Assembly: GCA_035048495.1 (NCBI GenBank)
Contig: CM068541.1
Location: forward strand, 5,215,929-5,279,928
DNA: 64,000 bases
Direction: 5' to 3'
Source of the DNA: Euptelea pleiosperma
Lineage: Eukaryota > Streptophyta > Magnoliopsida > Ranunculales > Eupteleaceae
The position numbers were made by a program, and so were the translations under genes. Position 1 is the stretch's first letter; each line of letters starts with the position of its first letter. Shown here in pieces: positions 13,811 through 63,512 of this stretch. The notes under the pieces are model-generated. The model did not search any database. It was not told the origin of the DNA and worked only from the letters and a program-made list of their open reading frames with translations.

Positions 13811-14125
13811 CTATGCAGCAGCGCAGCTGCATTTGCACCGTGCCATGCATTTCTTGCAGTCGGAGAGGCGTGGTTTCCCCCCATTGCAATCACACGTTTT
13901 CACGCACTTTGTTTGCGACATACCATCCCATAGGCATCTTGCCATGCAACGGAGAATCGGCACACATGCCGCGCACCCGTACTTCATCTGATCAAGAATG
14001 CAGTCTTTACATCCATTTCCATCCGAACTGCACGCTTCAGATGGTATGATAATCAACCACCACATCAACAACATCGTCGCCGCGACAACGGCTAATCGAA
14101 ACCGCTTTCTTTCCTCCATCTTCAT
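13811..14125 (-). CDS. small secreted cysteine-rich peptide, 104 aa, single exon
   Basis: I do not recognise the family by name with certainty. The protein has a charged N-terminus, then a hydrophobic segment at about residues 11-28 (LAVVAATMLLMWWLIII) typical of a signal peptide, with likely cleavage near SEA-C. The mature part of about 73 residues holds 15 cysteines (32, 39, 42, 51, 54, 60, 64, 74, 78, 80, 90, 93, 97, 99, 101). The motif CMARC occurs twice, at 60-64 and 93-97, which suggests an internal duplication or a CxxxC-paired fold. Basic residues sit between the cysteines. This resembles plant antimicrobial or signalling Cys-rich peptides, but the odd cysteine count does not match GASA/snakin (12 Cys) or typical defensins (8). 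A TATA box lies about 45 bp upstream of the ATG. A start at Met3 is also possible. Confidence 0.8.
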   Translation of the reverse strand: MKMEERKRFRLAVVAATMLLMWWLIIIPSEACSSDGNGCKDCILDQMKYGCAACVPILRCMARCLWDGMSQTKCVKTCDCNGGKPRLSDCKKCMARCKCSCAAA

Positions 14126-14169
14126 CTCACATTAATCAAACAAGTCTTTTGAATGCTCTAATTTTTGCC

Positions 14170-22290: not shown

Positions 22291-24410
22291 TATATATTTA
22301 ACATTGTATTTATATAGCGGTTTCGGTTCCAATATAAAACTATCAAAAAATGGAACCAATATTATCAGTTCGATTCCAGCTCCGATTCTCTTATAGTCCA
22401 TCGGCTCCCAAAAATGTAGTACTGGAACTGGTATCTTTGGTTCGGTTCTGGTTCTGGTTTTGATTCGATTCGGTTTCGGCTAAACGGGTAGAAATTGACA
22501 CCCTTGGGTGCATTGCAAGCTTCTAGGGGTATTTTTGGAAGAAGTAACAAAATAAGAAAGTTTAAATGCAAAAGGGTAGTTTTGGAAATACAGACAAAAT
22601 AAAGAACAGTTATAAAATTTTTAACAACTAAATATGCAATTAAAAGATTAAAAAATATGGCAAACGCAGGCACAATTAGAAAATCAAAATTCTTAAGTAG
22701 GAAAAGCCAAATCTGTCCTGTCACTTAATGAAACTGAGGGAAACAGTGGAAACACCCCCACTTCCATGATTATAGAAGCTGTTTTGGAAGAAGTGGAAAA
22801 ATAGGAATGTTTCGCATCTCTCTTTCTCTCCACTGGAGCTCCCTCACTTTCTATCTACCCGCATCTCTCTCTCTCTCTCTCTCTCTCCCAAATTTAGTGA
22901 TTTCAGCTTTTCACTATTTGAATTTTCACTTTTGTCATTTTCCATTCATTCAACTTATTTTAAATACTGTCATTGTCTTTATAAATTTCAAACTCACCTT
23001 TTTTTTAAATACCGTTTTAGTCCTTTTCCTTTCCTCTTTTTTATGAAGATTATTTGAAGGGGATTGATTGGAGTTCAACATTTTTTACCCACATCAAATT
23101 TGACGAAAAAGCTTTTTTGATAGCGTTTTTTTCGAAGAAACTGGTTGGAGATTATAAGTGTGCAAACATTGTATCCACCATTAAATGCTCCTTGAAAACG
23201 TGTTTAATTTATAAAATATTTTTTTGAAAATATTGAAATAACACATTTTTCAAGGGACATCCAACAGTACTGACAATGTTTGCATACTTTTAGGTCTGCA
23301 AACAGTTGCAGACTAGATTTGTCTCATTTCTTATCAACGAAATTTTCATTTATTCCCAAAACCCTCTTATTTGAGTTTATACATCTGCATTCATTTATTC
23401 TGCGAGGTAGCTTTCGACTTTTCCAACTTCCGAATTTTGCTTTTCTAACTGTACCTTGAGGGTGGGGAGCCACAATTTATAGTTTCATTCCTCCAAACTA
23501 ACCTTCCAAAACTGCCATTTGGTTTGAAACTTTCCTATTTTGCCTCTTCTTCCAAAAAGGCCCCTATATTCACCTTGAGCAGCCCACTGCAATAACCGGT
23601 GTATATTTTACAAATTGTGCTCATTCTTTTCGCTCGTAGGAAACCCTCTATGACCAAAAAATAGCATAATCAGATGATCTTTAATCATCCAAAAAAAGTT
23701 TAACTGGATTGACTTTTTTTTTTTTTCGGTTTTTAATCCTGGGGATGAGACCCAGCTTAGTAACCTCCCAGATCTGCCAATGCTGATTTTTGGTGGGGAT
23801 GATCCTATGGCAAAAATTCAAATCATTCTGATATTCAAAGACTGGTTTAGAAGCTGAACCGTTGATTTTTACCGTGTAACTTGAAAACCACATTTGATGG
23901 GGTTAGAAATTTTAGAATGGGCTGATTTTTTGTTGGGGTGATCTATACGGTGAGGAGATCAACCCCACCAAAAATCAGCCATCGATTCATCTTCTCTATG
24001 GGTATACCACCAAAATGGATGTCCCCTGAGCCCGACCCATATAAAAAATAACAGACATTGCAAAGTTCGAAGGTGATCTCCGTCAAACAAATACAACTGG
24101 GTTGAATATGTAAACATAGATTTGTCGTGTGATAAACACATTTTCAATGTCTTTAAATATCTGAAATGTTATCAATACATATTTAAAAATGCTTCAACAA
24201 CATTTTTTTTTACTAGGCTGCTTAAAGCCTTCTAAATAAAGAAAAAGAACTGGGTGCGGCGCAATCTCAACCCACTATTAGACAAATGCGCATATAACAT
24301 TGACTTTTCCGCTTAGAAATAAGAAAAAAAGAAAAAGAAAAACATGATCTCAAGAGGAAATGTATGGCCTGTCTCAGAAGGAATCTCGGGCAAGCACAGT
24401 TACCGAAATA
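22291..24410. other. VHA-e to TOP1 divergent/3' intergenic region
   Basis: It contains a (CT)n microsatellite at about 22866-22888, AT-rich filler, and an inverted copy of the 'family A' MITE at about 23690-24010 (caccaaaaatcagcc-atcgattcatcttct at its right end). The last part is the TOP1 3' flank. No gene is seen. Confidence 0.5.
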
Positions 24411-26191: not shown

Positions 26192-29100
26192 CCTTTTTCA
26201 AAGGCAAAACAAGAATACTATAAAAGCTAATAAATATGAAGAAGACCTGTAAGAGGAAAAAAATTTATATTTCTCTTAAATTCCTTGAAATGTTTCAATT
26301 CTTTCATATAGTTTAGAACGCAGGCCATGCAACCATGCGTACAACCATATGTACTATAGTTATACACCATGATGCAGTTATATCAAGTATGTATATACTT
26401 ATATTCTTCTATAAAACATTAATTTAGACATGGTAATATAATATTCTACACAATATATTATACTATACTTATAGCATGAAAAAATAATAATTATTATCAC
26501 TTGTATACTCCTATTTATTTAGATCATGTATGTTTTATTTTATAATTTTGCAATTATGTTTAGGATGGCAAAACAGGATTCGTATAGCCAATCTGGGGAC
26601 AGGATTTGGATGGTGAAGAATTATGTTTAGGTGCTTTAGAAGTTTTATTACATGTTGATCTGCCTATAATATATATTGCATTGTCATGCGCCTACATCTT
26701 AGATATTACAATATGATTCACATTAACTCGGTCTATATGATTAAACAGGTTGTCTGTTTCATCATTATACATGTGAGTAATCTAGTTGTCTTCTAATTAC
26801 GTTGCCTCTAAATGTGAAGCATTGGCAGGCCTTCATAGCATACAAAGAAAAAAAGATGAAAACTAGTTTCAAGAGCTTCCCTTTGGAACATCCTAAGCTT
26901 GCATCTTACCATCTCATCCAAAGTGATAGATGCATTGTATGTACGGAAAACTTTTGCTGTGAGGCCGGGCATGAGTTCCTTAAGATGAGCATTCAGTTTA
27001 CTAGTATCCAGCTTGTCAAAAAGATCATCTCCATCACTTTTTCCTGAAGAAAATAAAGAGTAACATACTCACGGGCCCCCAACTGAGTTTAAAATACACA
27101 GGCTGCTAGCAAGGTCAATTTACTCACCAGTTTTGAATTGTCCAATTGCTTTATACACAGCAAGCTCAACTTCAACAGTGTTGAAGTATCTAATGGAATC
27201 TTTACCAAGGAAGTCGAACTGTATGATTAAAAGAGTCCAAACATTGTTGGCAGACCAAAGATGAGTATATAATAAAATAGTGAGGAATTCTCTGGAAATA
27301 GACCTGCACTCTACCTGCAATTTGTTCGGAGGGACCAACGAAACATTTTCCACTTTCAGTGTACAACAGCCGACAGTATCGGCCTCATCATCATCCTGCA
27401 AAAGACAATTAATCAAGAGGCACACCTCATCATCATCACAAGCATAAGCCTTATTCTAACTATATAGGGTCGGGTCAATACCATAACTTCATTTTGGCTG
27501 AAGACTATACAACTTAAAACAAGTAAAAGAATAAGATCCAAGCAAACTGATCTTTTTGTGTGGGTCCACCAAGGGACAGGCCAAACTTTCATGGGGTCAT
27601 TGGGTCTGAAGAGTCTGCCATGTGACAAGATTGGCATGACCAACACACAGGAAAGGTATTTGTAACCAACACCTCATGTTTCCCTCTGAATAATATTATT
27701 AAACATTCACTTTCAGAATTTATGAGATGGTTTCCTTGTTCTTGGTTCAGTTCTTGCAAGAAAACCCAACTGCATATAACATTTTTACACATTCTAAATG
27801 AATCACATATAGCTTACTCCACCACGTACTCATTACATGCCAGCATTCTCATGAACACGGACAAAGTATGTAAGATGTTGAAGTTCAACAAGTCAATGCA
27901 TAGATCCAAAATAAATAAATTAACAAATAAGCAAGGTAATGAACAAAGTAACCAATTATTGGAACTCCCCACAATTAAAGAAGGCATGACAAAAGAAAAT
28001 ATGGATCACAGAAGTAACTGAAGCACGTCTAAGAACAGGTTACCTTCTCATTGCCTGCCCTGAGAGCCAACTTATCAATAAGGTAAGTAGCAACTGCTAC
28101 TTGCCGCTTCGAAGCATCTTTACTTACAAAATCCTTTGTGTAATTTAATCTGATATTATCTATGTAGTCCTGCACCCAAATTAGTGGTGACAGCAATTAG
28201 AAGTCCAGAATAATTACCAGCCTTGCTGATAACCACTACCCAAGAACAACCAACATTGGCTAATAAATGGAACCGTGTAGAAAGTTTACCTTCAGTAGCC
28301 TTGCCTTCTCATATTTCTCCTTGTCACTTTGCCCTTTCAATGAACTGCTAGCTGCCAAGAAGACGTACTTGAACTCTTTTGGATTGATTGGATCATTCCA
28401 AAATGCTAACCATGTAACAGTATTGTCATGCTTTACTTCTTTCCACCTGCAAAAGCACCACAATAGTTTCAAGTTTAAACACCCTAAAGGCAACTAGCCC
28501 CTAATCCTTATTTACTATCTCAAACACATTGTGAATGCATTCTTCTATTAAACTTGGCTTACAGAACCTTTCACCAGGGATTGGACATTCAGGAATTGGG
28601 GCGCCTTTTCCTATATTTATTGTAATATCACGTGGACGGATGCGTTTTTTCAGCTTTCCCATCTGACAACATAAAATTCAAAATAAAATAACCTCTGAAG
28701 CAAAGCAGATGCTTCCACGACACCAACTCTAGCTACTACATATTTAGGCATTTTATCATAGACTTCCTAATTTCAATCATTTGTGGATCACATTATCATA
28801 AGAGAACCTTGGGATGCTCTCCACGGCCACGAAACAGTCCAGGTGGTTCGACTCTGAAGTTTCCAACCTGAGATTGAGATTATGAAGAGAAAAAATGTCA
28901 GCACAAATTATTTGAAAAAAGATGAGCAAATACAGTACCAATAAAAACTAGAAAAACAAAAATACACCAAAATATATAAATCAGTAACCAGTGAAATTGA
29001 TCTACATGGCGAACACAGAAAGCTATGAGGTTGTTGAACAAAATGCAATTTGGACATACGCAAAATGAGAGCTAAAATGCCAATTGGCAAATCGAACTAG

Positions 29101-32100
29101 CCTAACTGGCAGAAGATATGATCAAGGCAAATTAGAGCAATCGTTATTTGGCAATAACATAGGAAAGCTCAAATCAACTATTAGGGAAACTCGCCAAAAC
29201 CTAATTTTCCTCAAACACAATATCGAAGCCGGATAAGTGATGTAGGATTGCCCACAGCCCACCTACGAAAAGCCTGTCAATTGATTGGACAACGGAAAAT
29301 TGGATAAATCCAAGTTGGACGTCGAAACGGGCCCTTAATGATTTGAAGTCAAGAGGAAAAAAAAAAAATTAACATAAAACTTTTTGTGCAGTCAATAGAT
29401 CCGATGGTCCAAAATATTAGTTGTGCAGCAGCATCACATAGTTTGCTGAAACCCTATTTCAAACAATTAACACTAACTAACATGTGATAAAGATATCCTT
29501 TAATGAGTGGGATACTTCAATTTGCACAGAAACTACAAATGCCTGTCCAAGCTGTCGCCTCTGCTTGAAAAGTGAGTAGTTCTAAGAAAGTCAATTCAGT
29601 TCAGGCCATTTTGCAAGTAAACACCTGAAATTCATGCCTCAATGCATGAAGCATGTGGTTTAGTACACTTTCCTGCATTGATACATTCACATCTTACAAT
29701 GGTTCCTTGACACTGTACTCGAGGTTTCCATGCATGGAAGCCTAAATAATAGAGCTTCTAATTGCAGTTTAGAAAGTCAAGCAGGACTTTCATAATAAAT
29801 AAAAAATAACAAGCTTTGCGGTTTTGAGATTAAGTGAAAAAGAACCTCCGTCACAACCATCTGTTGGAAGCTTTTGCAACAAAACATTGCAACTTGCACC
29901 ATACTGAAGGGAAAAATAGATTGCTAAAATGCCTCTTACCTACAGAGCATCAAATAGAAAAAGCAAATACTCATAGAGGTATCTATTTGTGATCCATAAC
30001 ATTTAACAGCATGATAAAGTGTATAAAGAATTGATCAATCCAATTTATATAACATTAATGTAATAATTACTAAACCACAGTGCAAGATCTAAAGTGACAA
30101 AGCAAAAAGCGCATAAAATCAACTACACTTGACATGAAAATAAAGTTAAGAGTTAACCTTCTCTTTGACACCATCAACAATAGCCCACATGTACTTCTCC
30201 TCTTGTTTCAGTTTTTCTTCTTTCATGGTCTTCTTCTCCTACATGAACCATGACTGTTTGGTCAAAAAAACTTCAAACAGAGTATGATCATGAACTAAAA
30301 TCCACTTTTGAAGAAGAACGTGACATGAAATAACATGTCAGTTTCACTATGAAAAGCATCCACATCAAATATTATATGTGAGTCAATTTGATGGTATGAA
30401 TCCACAGTCACAAAGTGAATCCACAAGCTGTACGTTTCAAACATCGGATATTACCAAGTTAATGGTTTCAAGGTTCACGGTACACTTTTGGGTTGTAGAA
30501 GACAGGGCCTGATTTTGGGGTTTCATGTGACCAATGTTGCAGAGATTAGGGTTCTAGGTTCAGGATTCTTAGGTTTTGGAAGAAAAAAAAGGACAAGATC
30601 TAAAATACAATTGCATTTACACCTCCAAAACAATGTCCGGTCTGAGGTACCTTCATGATATCTTGGGAAGTAAATACCTAACTTGACTTCCATACTTGCA
30701 AAGACGGCTCGGGGAAAATCGCTAGATTCTTTCTAGAAATATCCCAGGACCAAAGAGATGAGAAAGAAAGATACCTACAGTTTGTTCTGCATTCAAATCT
30801 GAATTTACGTAGAATTTTGTTTGAATTAGTACAGTCTAATGAAAGCAGTTGTAAATTGTTACCAAGTTGATGTGCCAAGTGTCATCTAAAGGCAACCAAG
30901 CTCAAAAAGTCTTAAAGCAAATTAAAATAATTAAAGATTGGCTCAGGTTCAAATTAAAAATTTTGTGAGAACATTGTAGTTAAGTTTCCGAATTCACACA
31001 GGCTTACTATTTTACAAAGCTAAAGCGCTTCATAGAAGTACAAGGATTCTTTACTTACATTATAAGAGTACTTCTGATGAAGCTGCTAGGAGGAACTATA
31101 TGAGACCTTCGCAGAAAAAGATCTTAGGTACCATAATATTGTATCTAATTATAAGAAAGATTTGCAGCATTGCCACAACATAAATAACAAATAAACTCTT
31201 AAAATATTTTATTGCTTGAATCATATCTCAAAATGTTTCATCTGATAAGAAAACTGCATGTTCACATGTGTATTTGTGTTGAGTTCATTATTGTGTCAAC
31301 CATACAGCTCTTTTCTTAATGGCGCGGCCCATTTGGGACATAATCCTAGATCAACAAACTAATAAAAGGAGAGTATGCATGCAAACTCAACAGTTAACGC
31401 AGAAACTAAAACCATTTTTTTAACACAGTGCAGTACGATAACCCACCCATCAACTTACCTGCAGGTATCCGATTTTTATCAAATTCAAAAGTAAATGCAC
31501 CCTAACTTACTTCTGTGCTCATTTGTTTTTTCTTCTCCTTCTCCTTCTGATGCCATTCATAGATTGGGGTGAAATCACAGAGCTCAAATTTCTTAATTAC
31601 ATGGTTTTTCCCAAGTACCGTTCTCCAATCATTCATGAAATTTTCTATAAATCTCTGCTTGGTTGCATACTCTGTATCTTTCATCACTGCAAACATTGTT
31701 GCAACCTGCATTAAGGAAAAGCAGAACAAGTAACTGATCAGCAATTGATGAGTAAAGAGTTTGAGGATCTCATAACTTCACTGCGACTCCTACTCAAGTT
31801 ACAAGAATGCAGCAATGAAGCGATTGAGGGGCATAATCAAACAACACAACATAAAAATCCCAAGCCCCACCTCCTCTTGTTCAGGAGTCAAATCAACAGT
31901 CTGCCCATTGTAGAGCATCTTAACTCCATGAGGCTTGTATGGAGGTGGGAAAATAACACCATTGTGCACCAAGGTAGTCCACTTCTGCCCTTCTCCCGAG
32001 CCAGGAGGCATTTTTGTTGACTTTGAGTATTTAGAAATCTTCATTACTTTCTTTGACTTCTTGGTTGTTTTCTTGAATGAAGTGGAAACAACTTTAATTG

Positions 32101-33004
32101 TTTTCTTCGTACATTGTGATTTATTATCTGGCACAACTGACTTCTTCATTCTTTGAGCAATAGGAACATGATCATCATCATCTGTTTTTGGTTCTGCTTT
32201 CACAGATTCTATCTTAACTTTGGCAGGGACAGATGCATCTGAAGGTTTTGGCTTCTTAACTGAAGACTGAGCTGAAGTATTGATATCGCATAGAGGCCTC
32301 TTGTTCAAAAATTTGGGAAACTTGACCAGTTCATTATCCCTCCTGCTAGAACCATTTTGCATAATTTTAGAAGCCAAAGGTTTCTCTTCATCAGAGTCAT
32401 ATGACTTCTTAGCAGATGACCCAGCACTGGACTTAAACTGGAACTTTGACGACAAAGGAATCTCATCTTCAGAATCTTCAGAAGATTGCTTAATGCTGAC
32501 CCTTGGCTTTTCTGGTACTGATGAGCTAGGAACAGGTGAACGAAGCCCCTTTGAAATATTGGGGGTGTTGCTTTTTGGTAAAGCTGCAGAAAGTCTAATA
32601 CTTAATGGTTTATCATCATCAGAATCCTCAGAATCAGCATTTGGCTTCTTCAGAGGTTTCTTCATTATATCATTAATTCTCAAATGTTTTCCTGATGAAA
32701 GCTTTGACTTATCAGCTACTGAAGTTGATGCATTAGAATTCGCTACAGTTGACTTCACTTCCGATGCCTTCGCCGATGAAACCACCTTACCCCTTTGTGA
32801 ACTTGAGTTTTGTCCATTGGGAGAAAATGCATTAGAGACATGCCTCCCTGATGATCCATCATGCCTTTGAGATGATAATTTCTTTACTTCTGAGTTCAAT
32901 TGATTTTGTTTAGATGCCGTTTTACTCCTTTTGAAAATTGTGGGTTCGTCATCATCACCGCTGTCATCAAAATATTTAGGTTTGACGCAAGCATCAACAG
33001 CCAT
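24411..33004 (-). CDS. TOP1: DNA topoisomerase I (type IB), 15 coding exons
   Basis: This nuclear enzyme relaxes DNA by a transient 3'-phosphotyrosine nick. Coding exons are 33004-31871, 31705-31511, 30238-30158, 28867-28808, 28662-28568, 28446-28290, 28169-28044, 27395-27315, 27218-27128, 27043-26910, 25505-25437, 25322-25233, 24956-24853, 24759-24591 and 24479-24411. They sum in frame to 884 residues. Residues 1 to about 340 are a charged Ser/Lys-rich N-terminal domain with repeated '[12 protein letters not shown]'-like acidic blocks. The core starts at [19 protein letters not shown] (residue 342). All five catalytic positions of the family are visible: Arg in LALRAGNEK, Lys in FLGKDSIRY, Arg in VFRTYNAS, His in CNHQR, and Tyr843 in [10 protein letters not shown] coiled linker ([21 protein letters not shown]) precedes the tyrosine domain. 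A leader exon is predicted at 35174-35280. Intact. Confidence 0.97.
25685..26190. mobile_element. MITE and AT/GA microsatellites in a TOP1 intron
   Basis: About 25735-26115 has inverted ends ('actcatgctattcttactaat' on the left, 'attagtaagaatagcatgagt' on the right) enclosing family A sequence (gaggatggtctccatggtgaagagatcatcctcaccaaaaatcag). Outside it lie TA repeats on the left (25710-25724), and (AT)n then (GA)n on the right (26141-26189). The left arm also has 'aatgggcatggggcctacatg', mirrored by 'catgtaggccccacgtccatt'. Confidence 0.75.
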
Positions 33005-33055
33005 TATCCCACTTTGTAGTAAGTTGACATGTATATCCCAGTATCATATCATTCT

Positions 33056-40085: not shown

Positions 40086-42597
40086 GTCGTTTTATGCTGC
40101 ATCTATGACACTCGGGCAGATCTTAGGCGAGAGCCCTCCTCACTCTAACCTAGGCCATGGGCTTTGTTTATCACCCATTAACCCCTCCGCATAAGTATAT
40201 TTTCTCCCTTCGATGAAGTCTACTTAACCTTAACCTTTGAATTGGGTCATTGTAGCCATAAGATTTGAGGTGTTAGTACTGTTGGATGTTCCTTGAAAAT
40301 TGTGTTATTTCAATGTTTTCAAAAATAATATTTTATAAATTAAAAACACGTATTTTAAGGAGCAATCAATGGCGAGTACACTGTTTGCCACTTTATTTTC
40401 TCATTTGCCATAGATAATGATAGGTACTTACATGTATTATAAGCACAATTACCACAAGGATCACGTGTTTACGATGTAGCATATGTACTCATTAATTAAT
40501 ATATTGTCTAATTAAAATGTGTAGATGAGAGTATCGAAGTAAATTAGGCAAATTTGATTACGACCCTGCTTGGTTCAATGCACTCACTTGCCAAAGTTTT
40601 GGGATCACAAGTGATTGGTTGTGGGCATGCAAATGAGCTGGCCTGCAAGTGGTCGCCAAGCCCTTGCAAACTCTTATAAGAAAATGGATGCAAGCATGTG
40701 TAGCCCAAAAATTGTGGTAAGTGACTGCGATGCAACTCACCGCATTTGCACTCCAGTGCAAAATGCATCTTAGTGCAGCGAACCAAGCAAGGCCGTTGTG
40801 GGTTCTAAGAGCATAACTCATATAATTAAAAGATTGCTAACTTAAGCCAGGCCAAGCTTAACTCACATTTTCACACACAATTTTGGTATACCTACATGGA
40901 AGATAAATCAATGGCTGATTTTTGGTGAGGATGATCTCCTCACCATATAGATCACCCCTACAAAAAAATCAGCCCATTCTGAAATTTCTAACACCATTCA
41001 ATGTGGGTTTCAAGTTAATGGTAAAAAATAGACGGTCCATAATTCTTCAACTTGTAAACCATGCTATGAATATCGTAATGACTTGAATTTTTGTGAGGGT
41101 GATCTCCTCACCATAAAGACCATCCTCACCAAAAATCATCCCATTCCAAAACTTCTAATTTATATATTGGCCCCCGACGATTTTTGTGTGTAAAAATAAG
41201 TGTCCGCTCCACCCTACTAAATATATTGACTCCCTTTCGAAATGTACCAAAATTTTAGTCTATGAATTTTTGAACTGAGACATATACAACACGCATAAAA
41301 TATATGCCGCATATTTCCCGTTTAGCGAAATTTTGACTGACTTTTTGAAACCTAAACTCGAATTTTTCCCGTATATTCGGAATAGGTAACAAGGCTCTAA
41401 GGTATGTTTTAATGCAGTTTTAATGTTCCAATTGCTGACTCTTTAAAAAAAATGCACATGGCACACTTTTTGGGCCCATTTAACCACATTGATGTTTTGC
41501 GGATCCCTTTGGTGGATGGATCTACACACCAAAAATCAGCCTGATTTATACCAGCTGTTGGATTCAAACATTTTTCCAACGGGTAGAAATCACCAATCAG
41601 GCTGATTTTTGGTGTATCGACAACTGGACCTACACACACAAAATCAGCTTAATTGGTGATTTATAGCAGTTGGATTTGAGCACTTCAGTTGGATGATTTG
41701 TAGCCGTTGGATTGAGTTTTTTTGTGTGTGCTCAAAATCTAACTGCTAGAAACCATCACTCAAGCTGATTTTTGGTGTGTAGGTCCACAAGGCAGTTTGA
41801 GAGTGTGAGAGCTGAGAAAATTGTAACATTTTTTCTCGCTTGAATTGAGCTAAGGTTCAACTCGGGCGGGTCGGAGGTGAACCCAAGCCCAACCGGGTTT
41901 CAAACTACTCAACTTGAGCTTGACCCAACCCGAGTTAAGGCTTTAGGCCCTCAGCCTGAGCCCAACTCGAGCTATAAATGGAGCTGATGGCTGACCCAGG
42001 CTTACTTTCTAAAAAGACTTTTTAAAATCAAAGTCTAAACCATGGGTATAAGTGGAGCGCGATCATTGGGCATATGATGGCTGCTTCAAAAAGCCCGTCA
42101 CTTCAAAAATTCTCTCTAAAATGATCTTTCAAAATTGCTCTTGACCGAAACATTCCTATTTTGCCACTTCTTCCCAAAAAGCCCCTACACGTGCTTTGCA
42201 CTCCTTCAAAGAAGGAAAAAAGGGGTTTTTGGGTAAAAATAATATAAATGTAAGGATGGGTGCACCTAAAATGTATATAAAAACTAAAAAGTATCTTTTG
42301 TAAGTAAAAGTAACATATAAAGTCAAGATTGAATTAGGGCATAACCCTAGCCCAATCCTCTCTTAAGAGGGTGAGGCCTCAACCCAGTCCTAGCTCTTCG
42401 AGGGCCTGAACTGGCTATACCCTAGCCCTACCCTCCAGGGCTAGGGCCTAGAAGAAGAGCATTAAAAAATATAAACTTACTTAAGAAAAGTGGACATTTA
42501 TTCTAAAAATAATTGAGTAAAATGAGTCATTAAAAAATAAAATTAATTTACATTAGTTAGAACAATTCAACATTAAATAGACATCTCCTTATATTAG
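40086..42597. other. repeat-rich intergenic stretch
   Basis: 40560-40796 is a short TIR element (ccctgcttggttcaatgc on the left, gcagcgaaccaagcaagg on the right). 40890-41165 is a family A copy (gaagataaatcaatggctga, gaggatgatctcctcacc). 41440-41800 holds several tandem common-repeat halves (aaaatcagcctgatt / aatcaggctgatttttgg). 41830-42600 contains low-complexity 'agcccaacccga' sequence. No gene is seen. Confidence 0.55.
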
Positions 42598-50719: not shown

Positions 50720-51450
50720 GTTTTTTTTCCTTGGTTGTTGTAATCAACCCTTACATTCAAATCGAATTATGAGCTGGGTTCCCTGAGGATTCATCGTCCA
50801 AGGCTAGGACTAGCCACGGAGGGAGATCCCCGTTCCATATACAAGACTGCAAAAAATTTAAAGCCTTTGAGGCGATAGTATGTGCAACCCTGTTAAAAGC
50901 CCGGGGAACAAAAACAAAGGATAGAGAGGAGAATGTTTTCGAACAACATAAAATATCAGCTGCTATTGCTAATGAAGACCGCCCAATGGAAGCAGAACCT
51001 TCTTGAAGAATTTGGATAAGAACCAAAGCATCGGATTCCACAATCAAATGATCCACCCCAAAATTCGCTTCAATCTGAAGCCCTCATCTTATGGCTCGAG
51101 CCTCGGCTTCTTTGACAGAGTCTGCATGAGAGTGGAGTCCTCCTGCCAGAAGACAAACATTAAATTCATTTCTGAGAACAATTCCCAGACCTACTTGTTT
51201 TGAGGATTGAATCCACGAGGCATCTGTATTCAGTTTGAGATATCCACTAGGTAGGGGACTCCATGAAATGGGTTGTGATGAGGCGTGTGAGTAGTCATAA
51301 GGCAAATCATGAGAATTAGGAATCATGTAGCGAGTTAGGGGACACTACTGACGGTGGTTGTGTATAGAGTCATTCCTCTACATCCAAATTTGCCACATAA
51401 GAATGCACGAAAATTCCCGCATGTAGACAACCTCCTCGCTATCATCGCGC
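50720..51450 (-). mobile_element. LINE 3' fragment with RNase H domain
   Basis: Minus strand: an ILMWQIWM-RNDSIHNHRQ linker (51340-51440), then an RNase H fold. KLNTDASWIQSSKQVGLGIV carries the first Asp, KEAEARAI the Glu and LIVESDALVLIQIL the second Asp, followed by FVPRAFNRVAHTIASKAL and WNGDLPPWL. A TGA after EARAIR (about 51085) splits the domain. An A-rich tail (T-rich on plus, 50721-50730) marks the 3' end. This is the C-terminal end of a non-LTR ORF2. Confidence 0.85.
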
Positions 51451-52099
51451 GATGATTGTATAGTGTCACAGGACCCACCGTAATTCAAATTTTTTTCTCT
51501 AGAATATTTTTGTTGATCACTGTACAGAGCCTTATATTGATATGGGTTCAAAGCTTGATCCTCCCATGGAGGTCAAAAGTTTAATTCACCTGGCCCTGAA
51601 AATACCATGTAACATCCTCTTGCAGGCCAACTGACCCCTTAAATGTTCATCCCAACACCAAATATCAGCCTGATTGATGATTTCTAGCCACTTGATTGGA
51701 ACATTTTTGTCCTCATGTGCTTCATAAACTGGCCCTCGATTGTATTCAAAACCCACATTGAAGAAAAAATGTTCCAATCCAATGGATATGTCAATCACTA
51801 ATCAGGCTGATTTTTGGTGTGTAGGATCATCACGCACTATTCACTTGTCCTCATAGTGCAAGAATATGGTATGCTTCGGCCCTATCCCTTCGATATGAAA
51901 ACTAGACATCAGAGACGAGTGAAACATAGATTTTAGCTCAACTCAACCGGCCAACAACCACGGAAAATGACTTTACTACACACTATGTTTGTGTGTTACT
52001 TTGGAAACTGTGGGACTTGAGAAACAGGGAAATCCATAACTCTTGACTTGAACACCCCTTAACTATCCTACGAAGCATTCCTATGTATATTCTCTAGTC
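51451..52099. other. common-repeat copy between LINE fragments
   Basis: 51590-51830 has both halves of the common repeat (atatcagcctgattgatgat; aatcaggctgatttttggtg). The rest has no recognisable content. Confidence 0.5.
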
Positions 52100-52690
52100 A
52101 GAACCAAATAGTAAGGTGTAGAGGCCACCTATAAAATGGACACCTCCTCCCCATGGCAAGCTTAAGATTAACATAGATGCATCTTGGAAACAATCTGATC
52201 GTAGGGCAGGCTTGGGCTTTGTTATCAGAGATGAGACTAATAAATGTCTTATGGTAGAGGATGGCGAACCCAGACCTTCTCGGCAAAAGAAGCTGAAATT
52301 TGAGTTATCTGGTGGGCACTGAAATGGGCGGAAAAATTCAAATATTTTGGAATAGTAGTGGAATCAGATGCTCAAGCCATAGTTAAAGCTCTTCAAGCCG
52401 ATCTGTCAACTCTCCACTGGGCAGCGAAATCAGTGGCTTCTGATATTTTGTTTTATCTTAGTTATTTCCCCTCTCTCTCTTTTGAATTTATATTGAGAGA
52501 GGGCAATGGTGTTGCTCATATAGTGGCAGAGAAAGCAGCCAATCTAGACACCTTTTTGATCTGGGAAGACTCCTTCCCGTGTTGGCTTGTAAATATTTTA
52601 TAGGAGAATACTCCCTAGTATCCTCCAGACTCTTGTTCCCCTTTTGGTTTCCTATTAAAAATATGTTAATTACAAAAAAAAAGGAAAAAG
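52100..52690 (+). mobile_element. LINE 3' fragment with RNase H domain, plus strand
   Basis: KLKINIDASWKQSDRRAGLG (about 52148-52207) with FVIRDETNKCLMV, then after frame breaks VVESDAQAIVKALQADLS (52350) and FILREGNGVAHIVAEKAANL, and WEDSFPCWLVNIL before a TAG at 52601. A 3' tail with 'aatatgttaattacaaaaaa' ends near 52690. Same family class as the fragment at 50720-51450 but in opposite orientation. Confidence 0.85.
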
Positions 52691-53129
52691 AAAAATTGCT
52701 TAGAAAGTTGGTGACACACAATACTGACACCAATGTTATATGATGATAGAAATACCATGGTTTTAAAAATGGCCATTGTATCGAAGATAACGGTCGTTAT
52801 AACGGATTCGGACCTACCCCGTTAACCCTCAGAAATAACAGCTGTTATAACGACAAGAACGACCGTTATTTTATTAAAAAAATTGTAAAAAAAAAACAAA
52901 CGTTATTTTCACTTTATTTTTTTTCCATTTTTTCGTTTTTCTGATATAAATCTTATTGAAAATTTGAATTTTATTTATTTATTTTAGGTACTTTTTTTTT
53001 GGTAATTTCTATTTTTTTTTTTTTTTTTACTTTTCATTTTTGCCCTCGTGCATTGCAATTCATTATAAAAACCATTATAATGAAAAAAATGGTAACGCCC
53101 ACAGTCCGGTATAACGACACCTTTTAAAC

Positions 53130-53771
53130 CTTGAGAATAGGGCTGGAATTGGATTGGATAGACTCGGAAATCTGATCTAATCCAGTCTGAAAAACCAAGT
53201 CCGGAATCTTCGTTTTCGTTACCAGATTGACCATGTTGTGATCCGATACTAACCTGATATCTATAATATGTATTATAAAGATGGGAGTGGCTTCTATGCG
53301 GCAGGGCCGCACAGACCAAACAAAATGACCTTGCTCAAGTTGTGCTGCGTCAACAAAAAAGCAAAAGCTCTTGCAGTTACCAACAGAACTGAATTAGTTA
53401 GTTTTGATTTTTTTTTTTTTCTTCTTTTTCTTTTTGAAATTGAGGATGTGGAGGAAGCTTGGCAGGGCCGTTTTGTTTGGTCTGTGCGGCCCTGGCGCAT
53501 AGAAGCCTCATATATATTTAATTGCCTAAAGGTATTTAAATTTATATTATTTAAATATACGTCTAAAGGTATTATATACATATCGGATCAGATCGGATCG
53601 GACCCAAAATCAATCTGACCATATCGAATTGGTTCCAGAACTGAATTTCATTGATCCAATTAGGATTGAATCGGGTCTGGTCCGTCCGAATCGATTGAAT
53701 TTCTTATCAGATCAATACCAAATCAGTACGAATCCGACTTGAACCGTTCCACTGCTAGCCCTACTTGAGAA
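53130..53771. mobile_element. hAT-type non-autonomous element with exact 8-bp duplication
   Basis: CTTGAGAA at 53130-53137 and 53764-53771 flank 53138-53763. Ends are TAGGGCTGG and, inverted, gctagcccta, as expected for hAT termini. The interior is 'ggatcggatcggacc'-type low-complexity DNA plus a third nested MITE at about 53283-53510. No transposase is seen. Confidence 0.88.
53283..53512. mobile_element. innermost MITE ('ggcttctatgcggcagggcc')
   Basis: Left arm ggcttctatgcggcagggcc then gcacagaccaaacaaaatg; right arm in inverse: cgttttgtttggtctgtgc and ggccctggcgcatagaagcc. The ends are about 38 bp and nearly identical. A target duplication is not clear. Confidence 0.8.
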
Positions 53772-54054
53772 ATACCATAAAAAAATTCCCTTGAAAAAGA
53801 AAAAAAAAATAGAAAGACAAATTACATCACGAGGGCAGATTGGTCATTAAAGGAAGTAAAATCATTGACTGTTGAGGGGGGAAGACAAAGAGTACACCCC
53901 AACGTGCGAAACAAAAAGGCCTGCAATGGCCCACCAAAGAAAATTAAAAGTTGGAAACAAAATAAACGAAAAGCTCGTCATCTTCTTGGGAACACCCTTG
54001 ACCCTTCCCTCCCCCCTTACATAACGCTTCTTGGTCCCTCTAAATCCTTTTTTT

Positions 54055-54064
54055 TTTTATATAC
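54055..54064 (+). promoter_or_regulatory. TATA box of the candidate ncRNA
   Basis: TTTTATATAC follows a T-run and is followed about 30 bp later by a pyrimidine-rich stretch (ctctctctctctttctctca) and 'attaaaaccttcacaccc', a typical plant core promoter layout. Confidence 0.5.
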
Positions 54065-54084
54065 TCTCTCTCTCTCTTTCTCTC

Positions 54085-54650
54085 ATTAAAACCTTCACAC
54101 CCTTCTCTTCTCCTTCTCCAGAAGAACCAGAAGGAACGAGCATGAAGAAGAAGAACAACAACAATCTTCCCCAGAAGAGATTTCTCCTTGAAATCTCTTT
54201 GGAAGTTTTGGTTTGTGGAATGAGAGACTCTTTTGGTGATCATTTGTCAATCCATCGGTGAGGATTTCTCGTAGAAGAAATGGGATTTCGATGAAGAATC
54301 GATCAGACGTACGGTTAGTGGCGTACATGGGAAAGCCAGGCATTTCTCCTTTCTCTTGCTCTTCTTCTTCTTCTTCTTTCTTTTATATGTATTTTTTTTC
54401 CTTTTGTGGGTTTTCTTGGGGTTAGTGAGAAATATTTAGGAGAAGATATATGTAAACTGTCCTTAAAAAAAATTTAAGGCAGATTGATAGAAATGTAATA
54501 AGATTTGGCTGGTTTCCTGGGTCTCTCTTTGATTCTTCTTTTATTTTTATTTTTTTTCAGAGAGTACAAGTAGGGTTCACAAATTATAGATAGTTTCCTT
54601 CTCAGATCTTATTTTCAGAAAAATGATAAAATTTGTACCTTGTCTAAAAA
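54085..54650 (+). ncRNA. candidate long non-coding RNA, miR160 target mimic
   Basis: The region starts about 25-30 bp after a TATA box with a CT-rich leader (54062-54120), typical of transcribed plant 5' ends. It has no long ORF; the longest AUG-led frame on this strand is 39 codons (54142-54261, opening MKKKNNNNLPQKR). It contains at 54319-54342 a bulged miR160 complement. A (CTT)n-like run follows at 54361-54380. The 3' end is not defined; a common-repeat MITE begins near 54655. Endogenous target mimics sequester a miRNA without being cleaved and thereby raise its targets, here the ARF10/16/17 auxin response factors. Alternative: the 5'UTR of an unrecognised spliced gene. Strand and function are inferred from the promoter layout and the site orientation. 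Confidence 0.6.
54319..54342 (+). promoter_or_regulatory. miR160 target-mimic site
   Basis: TGGCGTACA (54319-54327) pairs with miR160 nucleotides 21 to 13, with one G:U wobble at position 17. GCCAGGCA (54335-54342) pairs fully with nucleotides 8 to 1. Between them TGGGAAA (7 nt) faces only four miRNA nucleotides (9-12). That gives three extra unpaired nucleotides exactly where slicing would occur. This matches the accepted rule for plant target mimics (perfect seed, central 3-nt bulge, few other mismatches). Confidence 0.75.
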
Positions 54651-54654
54651 AATT

Positions 54655-55005
54655 CAGTATGCCACGTGGCACTCTTTCGAGCTCACTGACTCATGAATGA
54701 ATGGTCCACCCCTTGTTGGACCTACACACTAACAATCAACCTGATTGGTAATCTCTAGCTGTTGGATTTGAGCGTTTTCGTGGGGTGTTATATTTCTACC
54801 CGTTGGATCGAGCAAATGTTTTTTGATACTCAGATTCCTACTGTATAGGTCTATCAAAGGTGTGTGTCAATGGGCCCGTAAGAATGTGCCAAGTGGTGCG
54901 ATTTTATGTGTTCCAGAGACCATATAGACCGCTCTAAGTTTGAATAATGTCTCATCTGGGAAAACTTGAACAAAAACGGATAAAGAGGGTAATTAGGTTA
55001 TTTTG
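54655..55005. mobile_element. common-repeat MITE next to the ncRNA
   Basis: Starts with gccacgtggcactctttcga (containing a perfect G-box), then 'aacaatcaacctgattggta', 'ctgttggatttgagcg', and ends in 'gtcaatgggcccgtaagaat' and 'gtgccaagtggtgc'. Two inverted halves are recognisable. Confidence 0.65.
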
Positions 55006-55006
55006 A

Positions 55007-55205
55007 AAGGCTCAGGCTCCAAGGACCCCCTCTTTTTGACCGTTCGCATGCTCGGCCGTGAATTTCAAGAATCCAACGGTGGTTGCCAGCGCCCAAAAAG
55101 TGAAAAGTGATGGATTCTTAAAATCCACGGCCGAGCACACGAACACGGAGATGGGTCAGAAAAAAGGGGGTCCCCTGAGGACCCCTTTTTGTCAAAAACA
55201 TAGAT
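55007..55205. mobile_element. family D hairpin element
   Basis: Left: aaggctcaggctccaaggac, then 'gctcggccgtgaatttcaag', 'aatccaacggtggttg'. Right, inverted: 'gattcttaaaatccacggcc', 'gggggtcccctgagg'. It abuts the next element, so its right target duplication is unclear. Confidence 0.7.
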
Positions 55206-55587
55206 TTTTGTTAACGGTCAGGCTCAAGGTACCCCCATTTCTGACCCCCATCTTGGCGTACCCACGTAGAAGATGAATCAATGGCTGATTTTTGGTGGGA
55301 ATGATAACCTCACGATATAGATCACCCCAACAAAAATTCAGCCCATTCTGAAATTTCTAACCCCATCAAATGTAGTTTTAAAGTTACACAGTAAAAATCG
55401 ACGGTCCATAATGCTTCAGCTTCTAAACCAGTCTATGAATATCAGAATGATTTGAATTTTCGTGAGGATGATCTCCTCACCATAGAGATCATCCTCACCA
55501 AAAATCAGCCATTGATTCATCTTCTATGTGGGTATGCCAAGATGGGGGTTAGAAATGGGAGTCCATTGAACCCGACCCTTTTGTTAA
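55206..55587. mobile_element. family A MULE-type MITE, 364 bp, exact 9-bp duplication
   Basis: TTTTGTTAA at 55206-55214 and 55579-55587 flank 55215-55578. The long inverted ends include ggtcaggctcaaggtacccc, 'atttctgacccccatcttgg' and 'cgtacccacgtagaagatga'. The interior has 'ggtgatctatat'-type blocks, 'gacggtccataatgcttcag' and 'gaatgatttgaattttcgtg'. It is the best-preserved copy of the family also found at 23690, 25735, 40890 and 61555. Confidence 0.9.
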
Positions 55588-55779
55588 TTAGTTGAGGATT
55601 AATACCACCAAGCAACCCTACAAATGCAACCCCACAAAAAGACAAGAAAAAAGATATTTTAATTGAAGGTGTGGTTTTCAAAGTGTGCAACTCTTTCAAG
55701 GGGTTGCTTGCTTGACTATCCCAAGAACTACTAAAAAGCATCTCAATCAAGTTTGTGTTTGGCATTTTAAGACATAAAT

Positions 55780-56085
55780 CTGAAAGTATGAGTTGGTGCA
55801 ATGGCATTTCAATTGACTAGTTTAAACATATTCGATGCATGTCATTAGGAACATCGCGGTCGTGGTTTCAACCCCTTACCCACCTAATTAATAATCAAAT
55901 TTCATTTTTCGACAAAATTTACTTCTTAAAACTACATTATACGAGTAAACATTATCGGCCCGTAATACTATTTATTTCTCTCTTTCTTTTTCAAATGATG
56001 GGTAAAGTTTAGGTCGAACCCACGATATAGACAATGTGATGGTTACGCCCTAGCTGCTACAATGTTATGTTATTTTTTTTATAAG
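55780..56085. other. tRNA-like SINE-type fragments
   Basis: Plus strand 55790-55885 has 'gttggtgcaatggcat' (A-box-like) and 'gtcgtggtttcaacccc' (B-box-like) before an AT-rich end. Minus strand about 55995-56072 has 'gtagcagctagggcgtaacc' and 'cgtgggttcgaccta'. Neither folds as a tRNA. Both look like old SINE heads. Confidence 0.45.
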
Positions 56086-56094
56086 CCAAATATA

Positions 56095-56319
56095 TTATAA
56101 AAGGTCATGCTCAAGGGACCCCCCTTTTTCTGACCCCTCCTGGTGTTCGTGTGCTCGGCAAGAATCTAACGGTGGTTGTCAGCGCCGAGCTAGCATCACT
56201 TTTTTCACTTTTGGCGGCGTTAACAACCACCGTTGGATTCGTGAAAATCCACGGCCGAGCGCACGAACACTGAGAGGGGTCAGAAAAAGGGGGTCCTCCG
56301 AGCCTGAGCGGTTATAAAA
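56095..56319. mobile_element. family D MULE-type MITE, about 209 bp
   Basis: TTATAAAA at 56095-56102 and 56312-56319 flank 56103-56311. Ends are GGTCATGCTCAAGGGACCCC and, inverted, gggtcctccgagcctgagcg. The arms carry 'tgttcgtgtgctcggc' and 'aacggtggttgtcagcgcc'. Only 8 of the expected 9 duplicated bases match cleanly. Confidence 0.8.
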
Positions 56320-57289
56320 AGGAGCGAATGCCCTCCAAAACAAACCAACACATCAGATGATCAGCCTTTTGCCTCGATCAGACGTTTATCTTCTGAAATG
56401 ACATCACGAAGAATACTATATAATAATATATATTGTATATATTATATATTAAATTTTTTTCTCATAGACTGAATTGTTGTTAAGAAATAATTATATTAAA
56501 ATATAATTCTTCATTATTTTTATTTAATGTTTTAGGTATGGTTTCAGTTCTTAGTTTTGGAAATGAAATGGACTTTTATGACCAAATGGTAGGTCAGGTG
56601 TCTTGAATATTTTTTAATTTTATTTTAGGGTTTGAAGGTTAAGGCCATATTTTGATCTTTCAGCCATTTAGGGTTTGTTTTGTAGACCGTGTCATATAAC
56701 TCTTTGTTTTCTTAATTTATGGCTTGCATTACGGCCGAGGGAGATGTTGACTTTGGGTCATTTTAAACTTTTTTTTTTTATCACTTGCTTTAGTGACCTA
56801 TCTCAATCACTGTAGCTTGTACACTTGACACGTACCCATGAAAACCCATGTTTGAAATTTAATTTAATTTAGAAAAAAGCTGTCTTGTCATGGGTTCTTG
56901 CCAAGTTTATAGGCTTTAGTGATTGAGATGGGTCACTAAAGCGACCAAAAGTGGACTCTGTCCATGATGTGAAAATTGCTAAAAGTATATGAGATATAGA
57001 CCATAGATGCTGTCTATAAAAGGTAAGAACTGTTCCTGAGAGCTATTGATGGTAAGGTATGTATAGTGGATGGTTTAGATCGTACCAATTCCACCATGAG
57101 TCAACTTTTTTCAACCTCGGTGTGCTGAAACCTGGATTGGACCAGCAGATAGAACCGGAAAACTATTGAACCGTCCCACAAAGTGGAATCGTCCCAGCTC
57201 CAGTTGGGTTGTCTTTTTGACTAATTAGTGGGGCAGCGAGGGTGCCGGGATTTTGTTCGAGAGGGCCACAATCAATTGAGTAGAACCGC
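56320..57289. other. intergenic, no gene seen
   Basis: AT-rich DNA with TA repeats at about 56418-56455. 'ccatgaaaacccatg' and 'ttagtgacctatctcaatcact' recur inverted at 56925-56940, so 56780-56945 is another short inverted repeat. Confidence 0.45.
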
Positions 57290-59945: not shown

Positions 59946-61189
59946 AAATGTTAACAGCTAGCAATGGCATAGCATTTAAAGTTCTATATATATAAAAAAA
60001 ATGTTAGGATGCATGAGGAATCTCCTACGTGCGTGGGGGCTGTTTGGTTTGATTTGATTATCTAGTCATCATTTGGTGTTTGGAGGATCTAAAATATTAG
60101 GCCTGAGGTGATTTAAATAGTTTTTTTTCTTATTTTTATTTTTAATTTTGGTAGGTGAGCGGTGAGCAAGTAGTAGAGCATGAAATGGGTCGGACCATGT
60201 TCGGATCTAGGTTGATCCATATTCAAATCCGACTTTGAACAAATTGATCTTAATCTGACTGGATCGATCCATATCCAACCCACGGATAGATATACGGTGT
60301 GATCCACTAAAAAATGTTGTAATCTAATAACCTAGTTAAACCAAAGACTGGATCCGACCCAATAATATGAAGGCCAAAATACAAGATCCGAATTCGACTC
60401 TGATTTACTCATATCTAACCTTTTTTTTATTCAGATCGTGTTTAATGGATCCAAACCCATAAAATTCAGGTTCAAATCTGGTCGGGTTGGGTAACAGTGG
60501 GCCAGCCTGACATGCTTTTGAGATTGAGCCACAATTGCAAACCTGTTCATTGGGCCTAGGCATATTTTGAGACCCATTAGAAGAGTAACTAGGGGTCATC
60601 TTACTAAGTCCGGTCCAATAGACACATATGTTCAGAAATACCTAGATGTGGTAATGGGCTGGGTTAGCTCTGAGCCAAGTTCTGCCCAAGCATGGCTGAA
60701 ACAAGAATAGCTATGCCCAAGCCCAGACTCGCTGTCAAGAATTCAGGTCCATTCCAGGATCAAGAACAGGTACAATGGGCCACACCTTTGGATTTGATTG
60801 GGCCTAAATTTAATTTTACTGAATTTAGAACCGAAGCCCGGTCCAAATATTTAGTGAGCCACAAAAGAAAGACCAATCCCGGCCAATGACCGGATGGCCC
60901 TAAACGCAACACAAGCCCATACCTAGTGCATCTGGCCTGAAAGCACATCGGGCCAGCCCAGCACATTATACTCTAAATGTATCTACGCATAGGGGTGTTA
61001 ATGGATAGTTGAAAATTCAAATCCACATTCGAGTGAAATGATATTATTCATCCTCACAAGAATTCCTCAAATCATTAGATATTCGTATCCTGGTTTACAA
61101 GTTGAAAATTATGGGCCGTGTATCATAACTGTTAACTTGAAAACCACATTTGAAGGAGTTAGACTTCAGACTATTAGGGGATGGACGTA

Positions 61190-61554: not shown

Positions 61555-61925
61555 ATCTATATGGTGGGGAGATTATCACCAAAATATAGGGTCAGGATTA
61601 AGGGGACAACAAATTTGACTACTATTTTGGCGTACCCACATGGAAGATGAATCAATGGTTGATTTTTGGTGAGGATGCTCTCTCCCACCATATAGATCAC
61701 CCCGACAAAAAAAAATCAGCCCATTTTGAAATTCTAACCCTATCAAATGTAGTTTTCAAGTTAACGGTAAAAATAGACGGTCCATAATTCCTCAACTTCT
61801 AAACCAGTCTACGAATATCGGAATGATTTGAATTTTTATGAGGATGACCTCCTCACCATAGAGACCATCCTCGCCAAAAATCATCCAATTCCAAAACTCA
61901 TAATTTAAATATTGGCCTGTGTGCC
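61555..61925. mobile_element. family A MITE copy
   Basis: 'ggcgtacccacatggaagat', 'gaatcaatggttgatttttg', 'gacggtccataattcctcaa' and 'gaggatgacctcctcaccat' follow the order of the copy at 55215. Its right terminal repeat is missing or diverged. (TA)n follows at 61930-61950. Confidence 0.7.
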
Positions 61926-62429
61926 AAATTATATATATATATGTATATACCAACGGTGCACCTTATGGAATACCCCCATAGAGTCACCTTTATTGGATAT
62001 TCGAATCCAATTTATTTGTCCCATGAATCGGATATTATCAGATATATATCTAATAAGTTAATTGGATTCAAATATTAATTCAGAATATCCGTTGGATTTC
62101 GATATCCTGTGGATGGAGAGATGCTGATAGCAGAGAGGATCATGATCCTAATGCCCCTTAGAGGTGCAACTTAAAACGGCCCAACGCCAAGAGGCCCAAC
62201 ATGAATTTAATTTTGTTTTGCAACCTCATTTAAGCCAACCTCTACATCACGAATCTCACCCACCCTACCTTTCCTCAGGGATGATTTGTGTGGGAGATCC
62301 CATCCCCATCTTCATGTTTCCATTTCTTGATTAATAAATTACCATTTCCCACCCCCCAAAACCTGCAAAAACCTGGTTATGTTAAGAAGAAAAACAGAAA
62401 GAAAATAACAAAGAAAGAAAGAAAGAAAG
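61926..62429. promoter_or_regulatory. upstream region of the acyltransferase gene
   Basis: It begins with TA repeats and 'atattcgaatccaatt' sequence and ends in a purine-rich leader (gaaagaaagaaagaaagatg) before the ATG. No clear TATA box can be fixed. Confidence 0.4.
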
Positions 62430-63512
62430 ATGAAGATGGAGGATGAATTAATTTATCTGGTTGAAGTATCAGTTTTGGTTTCAGCTGCTTTAACTTATTG
62501 TTATTTCTTGGTCACAAAAATCTCTAATGGCAAAACCAGGTTCTTCTCTGTCCTCCCCATCTTCTACCTCTTCTACACCCTCCCATGGTATTTCTCCTCT
62601 GTTCATCTTAGAGGAATCTCAACTTTCTCTCTAACATGGGTTTCCAATTTCAAGCTCCTCCTCTTCTGCTTCGACCTAGGCCCTCTCACCCTCTATAACA
62701 ACTCCTTCATCCAATTCGTCTCCGTCGCCGCGTTCCCCGTCAAAATCAAAGAACACCCATCATCCTCGAATCCATCTCTCCGTCTCGAACCCTTGCTAAA
62801 TTTCGCGGCGAATGGATTACTATTAGCCTTGTTAGTGAATTTCTACACTTACAAGGAATTTTTCCCACACCAACTCATTTTACTTCTCTATTGCTTGCAC
62901 ATGTTCTTAGTGCTCGACATTGTTTTATTAGGGGAAGCTATATTAGTTCGCGCCGTACTTGGGTTAGAACTCGAAGTCGCGTTCAACCGGCCTTATCTAG
63001 CGACGTCGCTTCAGGATTTTTGGGGGAGGAGGTGGAACCTTGTGGTATCGAACATTTTAAGGCAGAGTGTGTACGACCCGACTCGATATACACTCGGATG
63101 GATTATAGGAGAGACGCCGGCGAATGCGGTGGCCTTGATCACTGTGTTCGTGGTGTCCGGGCTCATGCATGAACTCGTCTACTACTATATCACGTGTGGT
63201 GCTGGACCATCTTGGGAGATAACGTGGTTCTTCGTGTTGCACGGGGTGTGTACGGCCGTTGAGATAGTGGTGAAGTCTTGGGTTCGGGCTTTGGGATGGC
63301 GTTTGTTGCGCCCGGTCGGTTCAGTAGCGTTGGTACTTGGGTTTGTGGCGGTTACGGGTTTTTGGTTGGTTTTCCCTCCAATTTTGAGGAGTGGAGCTGA
63401 CGTGAAGGGTATTGGAGAATACGCTGCTTTGGCTGAGTTTCTGAGTGAGAAACATAAAGGTTTGATGAATCAGACCCGTTTACTTTTTCTTGGTGGGCCC
63501 AGTCGTTTATGA
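62430..63512 (+). CDS. wax-synthase-type MBOAT acyltransferase, single exon
   Basis: Belongs to the plant 'probable long-chain-alcohol O-fatty-acyltransferase' family, membrane enzymes of the ER that esterify fatty acyl groups to alcohols (wax esters) or, in some members, sterols or diacylglycerol. The protein is 360 residues, the normal family length. It has about eight hydrophobic segments, the family signature RPYLATSLQDFWGRRWN (187-203) followed by LVVSNILRQSVYDPTR, and the catalytic His247 in FVVSGLMHELVYYYI. There is no intron, and no stops or shifts. Met1 and Met3 are both possible starts. Codons are G+C-richer than the surrounding DNA, which marks the real gene. Substrate cannot be told from sequence. 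An AATAAA overlaps the stop codon. Confidence 0.93.
   Translation: MKMEDELIYLVEVSVLVSAALTYCYFLVTKISNGKTRFFSVLPIFYLFYTLPWYFSSVHLRGISTFSLTWVSNFKLLLFCFDLGPLTLYNNSFIQFVSVAAFPVKIKEHPSSSNPSLRLEPLLNFAANGLLLALLVNFYTYKEFFPHQLILLLYCLHMFLVLDIVLLGEAILVRAVLGLELEVAFNRPYLATSLQDFWGRRWNLVVSNILRQSVYDPTRYTLGWIIGETPANAVALITVFVVSGLMHELVYYYITCGAGPSWEITWFFVLHGVCTAVEIVVKSWVRALGWRLLRPVGSVALVLGFVAVTGFWLVFPPILRSGADVKGIGEYAALAEFLSEKHKGLMNQTRLLFLGGPSRL

Follow-up and report, generated by a model that had tools for sequence, protein, structure and literature searches.

General features of the window

The window analysed here, a 64 kb (64,000 nucleotide) stretch of the Euptelea pleiosperma genome, carries protein-coding genes, short repeats and decayed retroelements. 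An FtsZ-like gene occupies several exons on the minus strand (4067-12141); three of its frames match FtsZ_C or Tubulin/FtsZ above the Pfam cut-off and two below it. Judging from its N-terminus, this is probably the plastid-division gene FtsZ1. A DNA topoisomerase I gene, also in several exons on the minus strand (26811-33043), has Topoisom_I and Topoisom_I_N matches. A wax-synthase-like MBOAT_2 gene is contained in a single plus-strand frame (62409-63509), for which 7994 candidates were scored and at least 1378 plant wax-synthase-like proteins matched at E 1e-20 or better. Among the best 120 of the 1378 matches, the seven with the best E-values belong to eudicot proteins of greater length, with 40-54% identity. 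The match that follows, which is also the best named one comparable in length, comes from Magnolia sinica (53%); Tasmannia lanceolata (49%) and Aristolochia fimbriata (51%) rank shortly after it. The DNA is clearly that of a land plant; a placing in or near the magnoliids, the group of these named matches, would be a guess resting on this gene. A cysteine-rich frame of 106 codons on the minus strand (13814-14131) has, by eye, a start resembling a signal peptide and has no Pfam match.

Decayed pieces of retroelements are found at 7118-10087 and 50760-52600 and include copia-type gag, zf-RVT (presumably LINE-like) and the RNase-H-like RVT_3. A MITE-like short repeat with inverted ends lies at 55213-55580; its copies at 40880-41141, 61590-61887 and 23778-24018 are 80-85% alike to it.

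An island between repeats

The features around the locus of main interest are summarized in Table 1. They fall within an island that is flanked on both sides by repeated DNA. Upstream of the island, 53289-53339 and 53458-53507 form an inverted pair, and from 54659 onward the sequence is a member of a many-copy repeat family. The start of this downstream repeat contains a G-box palindrome, CCACGTGG, at 54662-54669. Judged by eye, the setting of the site appears promoter-like. An earlier note on this DNA had proposed a probable start with a TATA box and a CT-rich leader here: the plus-strand TATATA and the CT-rich stretch are indeed present as sequence, whereas a start near 54085 is our inference.

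Table 1. Coordinates of features at and around the miR160-matching site
Feature	Position	Strand	Remarks
Island without similar copy in the window	53508-54658		blastn with 52000-57000 as query, E 1e-4; covers copies within the window
TATATA, possible TATA box	54058-54063	+	consensus only, by reading
CT-rich leader	54064-54119	+	composition; 54060-54119 without G
Putative short non-coding transcript	54085-54520	+	boundaries are guesses: start some 20-30 nt downstream of TATATA, end close to AATAAG (54497)
39-codon ORF	54142-54261	+	ends 57 nt before the site; no Pfam match
44-codon ORF (ATG) across the site	54291-54425	+	within a 61-codon frame
Possible intron removing the site	54314-54560	+	donor ACG/GTTAGT, acceptor TTTTTTTTCAG; simple scores
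5' arm of the mimic-like site	54319-54327	+	pairs miR160 positions 21-13
7-nt middle of the mimic-like site	54328-54334	+	TGGGAAA, opposite miR160 positions 9-12
GGGA island	54329-54332	+	can pair miR160 positions 12-9; bulges U (54328) and AA (54333-54334)
3' arm of the mimic-like site	54335-54342	+	pairs miR160 positions 8-1

A site with mimic-like pairing to miR160

The 24 plus-strand bases at 54319-54342, TGGCGTACATGGGAAAGCCAGGCA, form a candidate mimic-like site for miR160, a microRNA of the auxin pathway. All pairs between miR160 positions 1-8 and the 3' arm are Watson-Crick; miR160 positions 13-21 are paired with the 5' arm, position 17 being the only G:U. The middle of the site offers seven bases to the four miRNA positions 9-12, leaving three extra. 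The miR160-mimic-like pairing is thus confirmed, with the coordinates, the two pairing arms and the three extra bases that the earlier note had given.

The four bases GGGA within the middle are the same as those facing positions 9-12 in a perfect miR160 site. The energy optimum (-35.8 kcal/mol, compared with -45.4 kcal/mol for a perfect miR160 site) pairs 21 of the 21 miRNA bases, with a 1-nt bulge (U) at 12/13 and a 2-nt bulge (AA) at 8/9. Leaving positions 9-12 open gives -26.7 kcal/mol. A lone 3-nt bulge yields -32.3 kcal/mol at 9/10, at the cost of a mismatch at position 12; -31.7 kcal/mol at 8/9; and -28.2 kcal/mol at 10/11, where positions 10 and 12 are mismatched and the energy is 7.6 kcal/mol above the optimum. 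The layout had been described as that of IPS1, and this is true only in a looser sense, as the optimum consists of two small bulges around a paired centre and not of one bulge.

GGGA is present in 808 of the 63,993 7-mers of the window, making the agreement at the centre an event of about 1%, and one that was noticed afterwards. An agreement of this rarity suggests that the sequence descends from a miR160 site or was selected as one, and the re-pairing of the centre through GGGA makes chance less likely. It also makes it less certain that the site cannot be sliced, because pairs are available to positions 10 and 11. The extra bases would distort the duplex, but with positions 9-12 pairable in the energy optimum, slicing is possible. 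If miR160 did pair GGGA through positions 9-12 and slice the RNA, the site would be a target or an siRNA trigger and not a trap. The complete pairing of the miRNA at the optimum, centre included, favours such cleavage; the centre is, however, flanked by the 2-nt bulge at 8/9 and the 1-nt bulge at 12/13, and plant slicing generally requires a near-continuous helix at the centre. We consider a cleavable target improbable.

Published rules for target mimics were applied to the site. By the PeTMbase rules, according to the available text of PMC5148581, positions 2-8 must be perfectly paired, three unpaired bases must lie between positions 9 and 12, and at most three mismatches are allowed outside them. 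At the present site positions 2-8 are perfectly paired, and there are no mismatches in positions 1-8 and 13-21, with one G:U. The bulge rule of that source, as available, fits a pairing short of the optimum, in which the bulge lies at 9/10 and position 12 is mismatched (-32.3 kcal/mol), while the optimum at -35.8 kcal/mol has its bulges at 8/9 and 12/13. The stricter rules in the accessible part of PMC3441763 allow a 21-nt miRNA a single bulge, 3-5 nt long and placed at positions 10-12, and these fit only the weaker pairing with the bulge at 10/11 (-28.2 against -35.8 kcal/mol). By the rules given in the available text of PMC5148581 the site would thus qualify as a mimic, provided that sub-optimal pairing is allowed. 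Mimic-like action of the site is plausible.

Rarity of the match

Expected numbers of matches were calculated under a first-order Markov model for 64 kb, on both strands and with at most one G:U. For miR160, 1.7e-5 matches are expected per window with exactly three extra bases and 8.4e-5 with loops of 5-9 nt; over 30 miRNA families the corresponding values are 0.0015 and 0.0074. The 30 families entered both this calculation and a scan of the window. The scan covered both strands, demanded perfect pairing at positions 2-8 and admitted loops of 5-9 nt. It ranked the site as the best match of all 30 families, with a penalty of 0.5, the next best families reaching 2.5. As a control, miRNAs with shuffled letters were scored, and one of 20,000 came to a penalty of 0.5 or less. 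With 1.7e-5 matches expected and one success in 20,000 shuffles, the claim that such a site should occur far less than once per 64 kb holds.

The picture changes at the scale of a genome. The miR160 expectation is 0.08 for a genome of 300 Mb and 0.53 for one of 2 Gb, so a chance occurrence somewhere in the genome is not negligible on the paired bases alone. The 21-base pattern with 25 spacings was also found in 11 stretches of a prokaryote genome collection (257 billion bases) and in three IMG/VR contigs with the same sequence on either side of the match. These two scans serve as background only; we know of no role for miR160 in prokaryote or viral sequences. The window is unusual, and 17 pairs alone are compatible with chance if many windows are examined.

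The site could accordingly be dead intergenic sequence that resembles a miR160 site by chance, a reading to which both the genome-wide expectation and the prokaryote and IMG/VR occurrences lend weight. Against it are the low expectation per window and the result of the shuffles, as well as the re-pairing of the centre and the promoter-like setting. Overall, we judge a chance match unlikely, although it deserves to be taken seriously.

Coding potential and RNA searches

The absence of a long plus-strand ORF, as had been claimed, was verified: of the listed frames that run over the site, the longest has 61 codons, 44 of them counted from an ATG. No candidate sharing three words with the 44-codon ORF was found in a protein collection that includes many plants, and the 61-codon frame has no Pfam match. 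On the minus strand an open frame of 95 codons (54098-54382) runs over the site. As a coding sequence it was rejected, with 11 protein candidates, none of them at E 10, and no Pfam match. A coding exon over the site was likewise dismissed, as neither the 44-codon plus ORF nor the 95-codon minus frame gave a homologue or a Pfam match in these searches. A further candidate, the first exon of a longer plus-strand gene, was discarded after 17 frames of at least 55 codons between 54100 and 62400 gave nothing at the Pfam cut-off; the shorter plus frames given to Pfam were the two at the site. The 17 frames include one weak match below the cut-off (E 0.096, 60528-60707), and another weak match below the cut-off, to gag (E 0.072), lies just upstream of the putative transcript at 53781-54086 (+).

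The site might also be a fragment of an ARF10/16/17 gene, in which the three extra bases amount to one codon. In the ARF frame the site reads G-V-H-G-K-A-R-H, which is near the ARF motif GIQGARH. This resemblance does not extend into the flanks, which are not ARF-like by eye: downstream the frame enters low-complexity F/L, a stop lies 16 codons before the first G of the site, and the 54-codon frame is without a Pfam match at the curated cut-off (one match is at chance level, E 0.09). On the flanks and the Pfam result, an ARF gene fragment was judged unlikely, and we hold it to be the most improbable of the readings considered here.

Rfam returned nothing at the gathering score over the window, and the five weak matches around the site (53700-54700; E 1.6-7.6) include none to miR160. 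The only occurrence of TGCCTGGCT in the window, at 54334-54342 of the minus strand, is the complement of the mimic-like site itself. A MIR160 precursor was therefore rejected, there being no Rfam match and no TGCCTGGCT in the window other than this complement. The searches made (proteins, Pfam and Rfam) gave neither a coding sequence nor a known RNA that would account for the locus. Fold prediction shows nothing out of the ordinary for 54085-54600 (z -0.77): 18 of 100 shuffles folded at least as well, which speaks against a special RNA structure in this segment. Nor is the site specially open within 54085-54520: 368 of the 413 24-mers equal or exceed it in openness, the 8-mer bearing the seed match ranks 131 of 429 in openness, and the predicted unpaired probability of the other arm is 0.0013.

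Possible splicing around the site

The site is closely preceded by a potential splice donor. The donor at 54314, 5 nt before the site, is the best GT in 54085-54560 (score 3.61, uncalibrated); two others in this segment score above 1.5, at 54421 (3.12) and 54258 (1.71). An ad hoc pyrimidine score places the acceptor at 54559-54560 among the highest 0.03% of AGs. Plant introns are U-rich, and from 54343 the sequence is U-rich too, with 64% T in 54343-54420. An intron of 54314-54560 would remove the site, one starting at 54421 would keep it, and an RNA ending near 54520 would have no intron.

If splicing joined 54313 to 54561, the site would be discarded and would act, if at all, only in unspliced RNA. 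The rank of donor and acceptor on these uncalibrated scores points in this direction, as does the U-rich run. Donors as good as 54314 are nevertheless common in the window (54 of the 3111 plus-strand GTs, the top 1.7%, or about one every 1185 nt), the donor at 54421, which scores a little lower, would keep the site, and AATAAG at 54497, before the acceptor, could end the RNA ahead of it. Moreover, neither the donor table nor the ad hoc acceptor score is calibrated. An intronic site is, in our estimate, unlikely, but it is a serious rival of the decoy reading. It is a long shot that the two arrangements are alternatives in one locus, a splice-switched miR160 trap in which the donors before (54314) and after (54421) the site would share the acceptor at 54559-54560. 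Were this true, donor choice or intron retention would set the amount of miR160 trapped, and the split bulge would be a variant of the IPS1 layout.

A candidate miR160 decoy RNA

A miR160 decoy carried by a short intergenic non-coding RNA is the most likely reading of the locus, a tentative preference that falls somewhat short of an even chance. A short plus-strand non-coding RNA, presumably starting near 54085, would be transcribed and retain a single miR160-binding site. AGO1 loaded with miR160 would bind this site through both arms, and slicing may be slow or absent owing to the distortion that the three extra bases would impose on the helix at about positions 8-13. The bound miR160 would thereby be kept from the ARF10/16/17 mRNAs.

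The decoy reading is supported by the two-arm pairing with one G:U, the rarity of the match, the pairability of all 21 bases and a strong predicted duplex of -35.8 kcal/mol. It is also supported by the island between repeats, the TATATA and CT-rich leader, the lack of protein and Rfam matches in the searches described, the fit of a sub-optimal pairing to the PeTMbase rules, and the mimics of miR160 known from other plants. The mimic interpretation of the earlier note is borne out in part: the pairing and its rarity hold. We count against it that the site is not specially open, that an intron is plausible, that positions 9-12 are pairable, that the stricter rules in the available part of PMC3441763 fit only a weaker pairing, and that the genome-wide chance expectation is 0.08-0.53. 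What sets this candidate apart is its split bulge, together with the rival splice donors close to it. An active decoy would add a miR160 trap and would bear on the age and spread of ARF10/16/17 control by decoys, and its split bulge would put to the test whether unpaired positions 9-12 are a requirement for mimicry.

Relation to known mimics

The earlier note had stated that miR160 mimics are described in other plants. The available portions of the literature bear this out for Arabidopsis (ath-eTM160-1 and -2; PMC11353855, PMC6162444), rice (osa-eTM160; PMC6371585), Brassica (bra-eTM160; PMC6888562) and longan (PMC4633511). Because miR160 mimics are thus known from several other plants, the candidate adds at most one more case of a known kind. 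The Arabidopsis and Brassica mimics are expressed, and their overexpression altered the plants, according to the accessible text of PMC11353855, PMC6162444 and PMC6888562. The candidate resembles the eTM160 lncRNAs in addressing the same miRNA with a mimic-like site, and in a locus that seems to be intergenic and non-coding. It differs in that the eTM160 lncRNAs, compared here through the available descriptions, are expressed RNAs, whereas the candidate is known from DNA sequence alone. A literature text search with six versions of the site, each of 12-18 nt, returned no matching title concerning miR160, and the available parts of other lncRNA and mimic surveys (PMC3121747, PMC4608266, PMC6018911) held no sequence to compare with the site.

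With the IPS1/At4 mimic of miR399 the candidate has the principle of target mimicry in common. As described in the accessible part of PMC3441763, IPS1 has one 3-nt bulge opposite miR399 positions 10-11; in the best pairing of the candidate, in contrast to that single bulge, the extra bases are split 1 + 2 around a paired centre. The longan report (PMC4633511), which also mentions poplar for miR160 mimics, describes in its available text four candidate miR160 eTMs. All are unigenes: three are annotated genes, of which two carry the site antisense, and the fourth is an unknown mRNA. The text links them to a specially marked dlo-miR160a, possibly its star strand, and qPCR detected only two of the four. 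Like the candidate, the longan eTMs have, in the text available, a miR160-family site with three additional bases in its middle. The bulge is at 10/11 in all four of these unigenes as there described, while the candidate is apparently intergenic and its optimum has bulges at 8/9 and 12/13.
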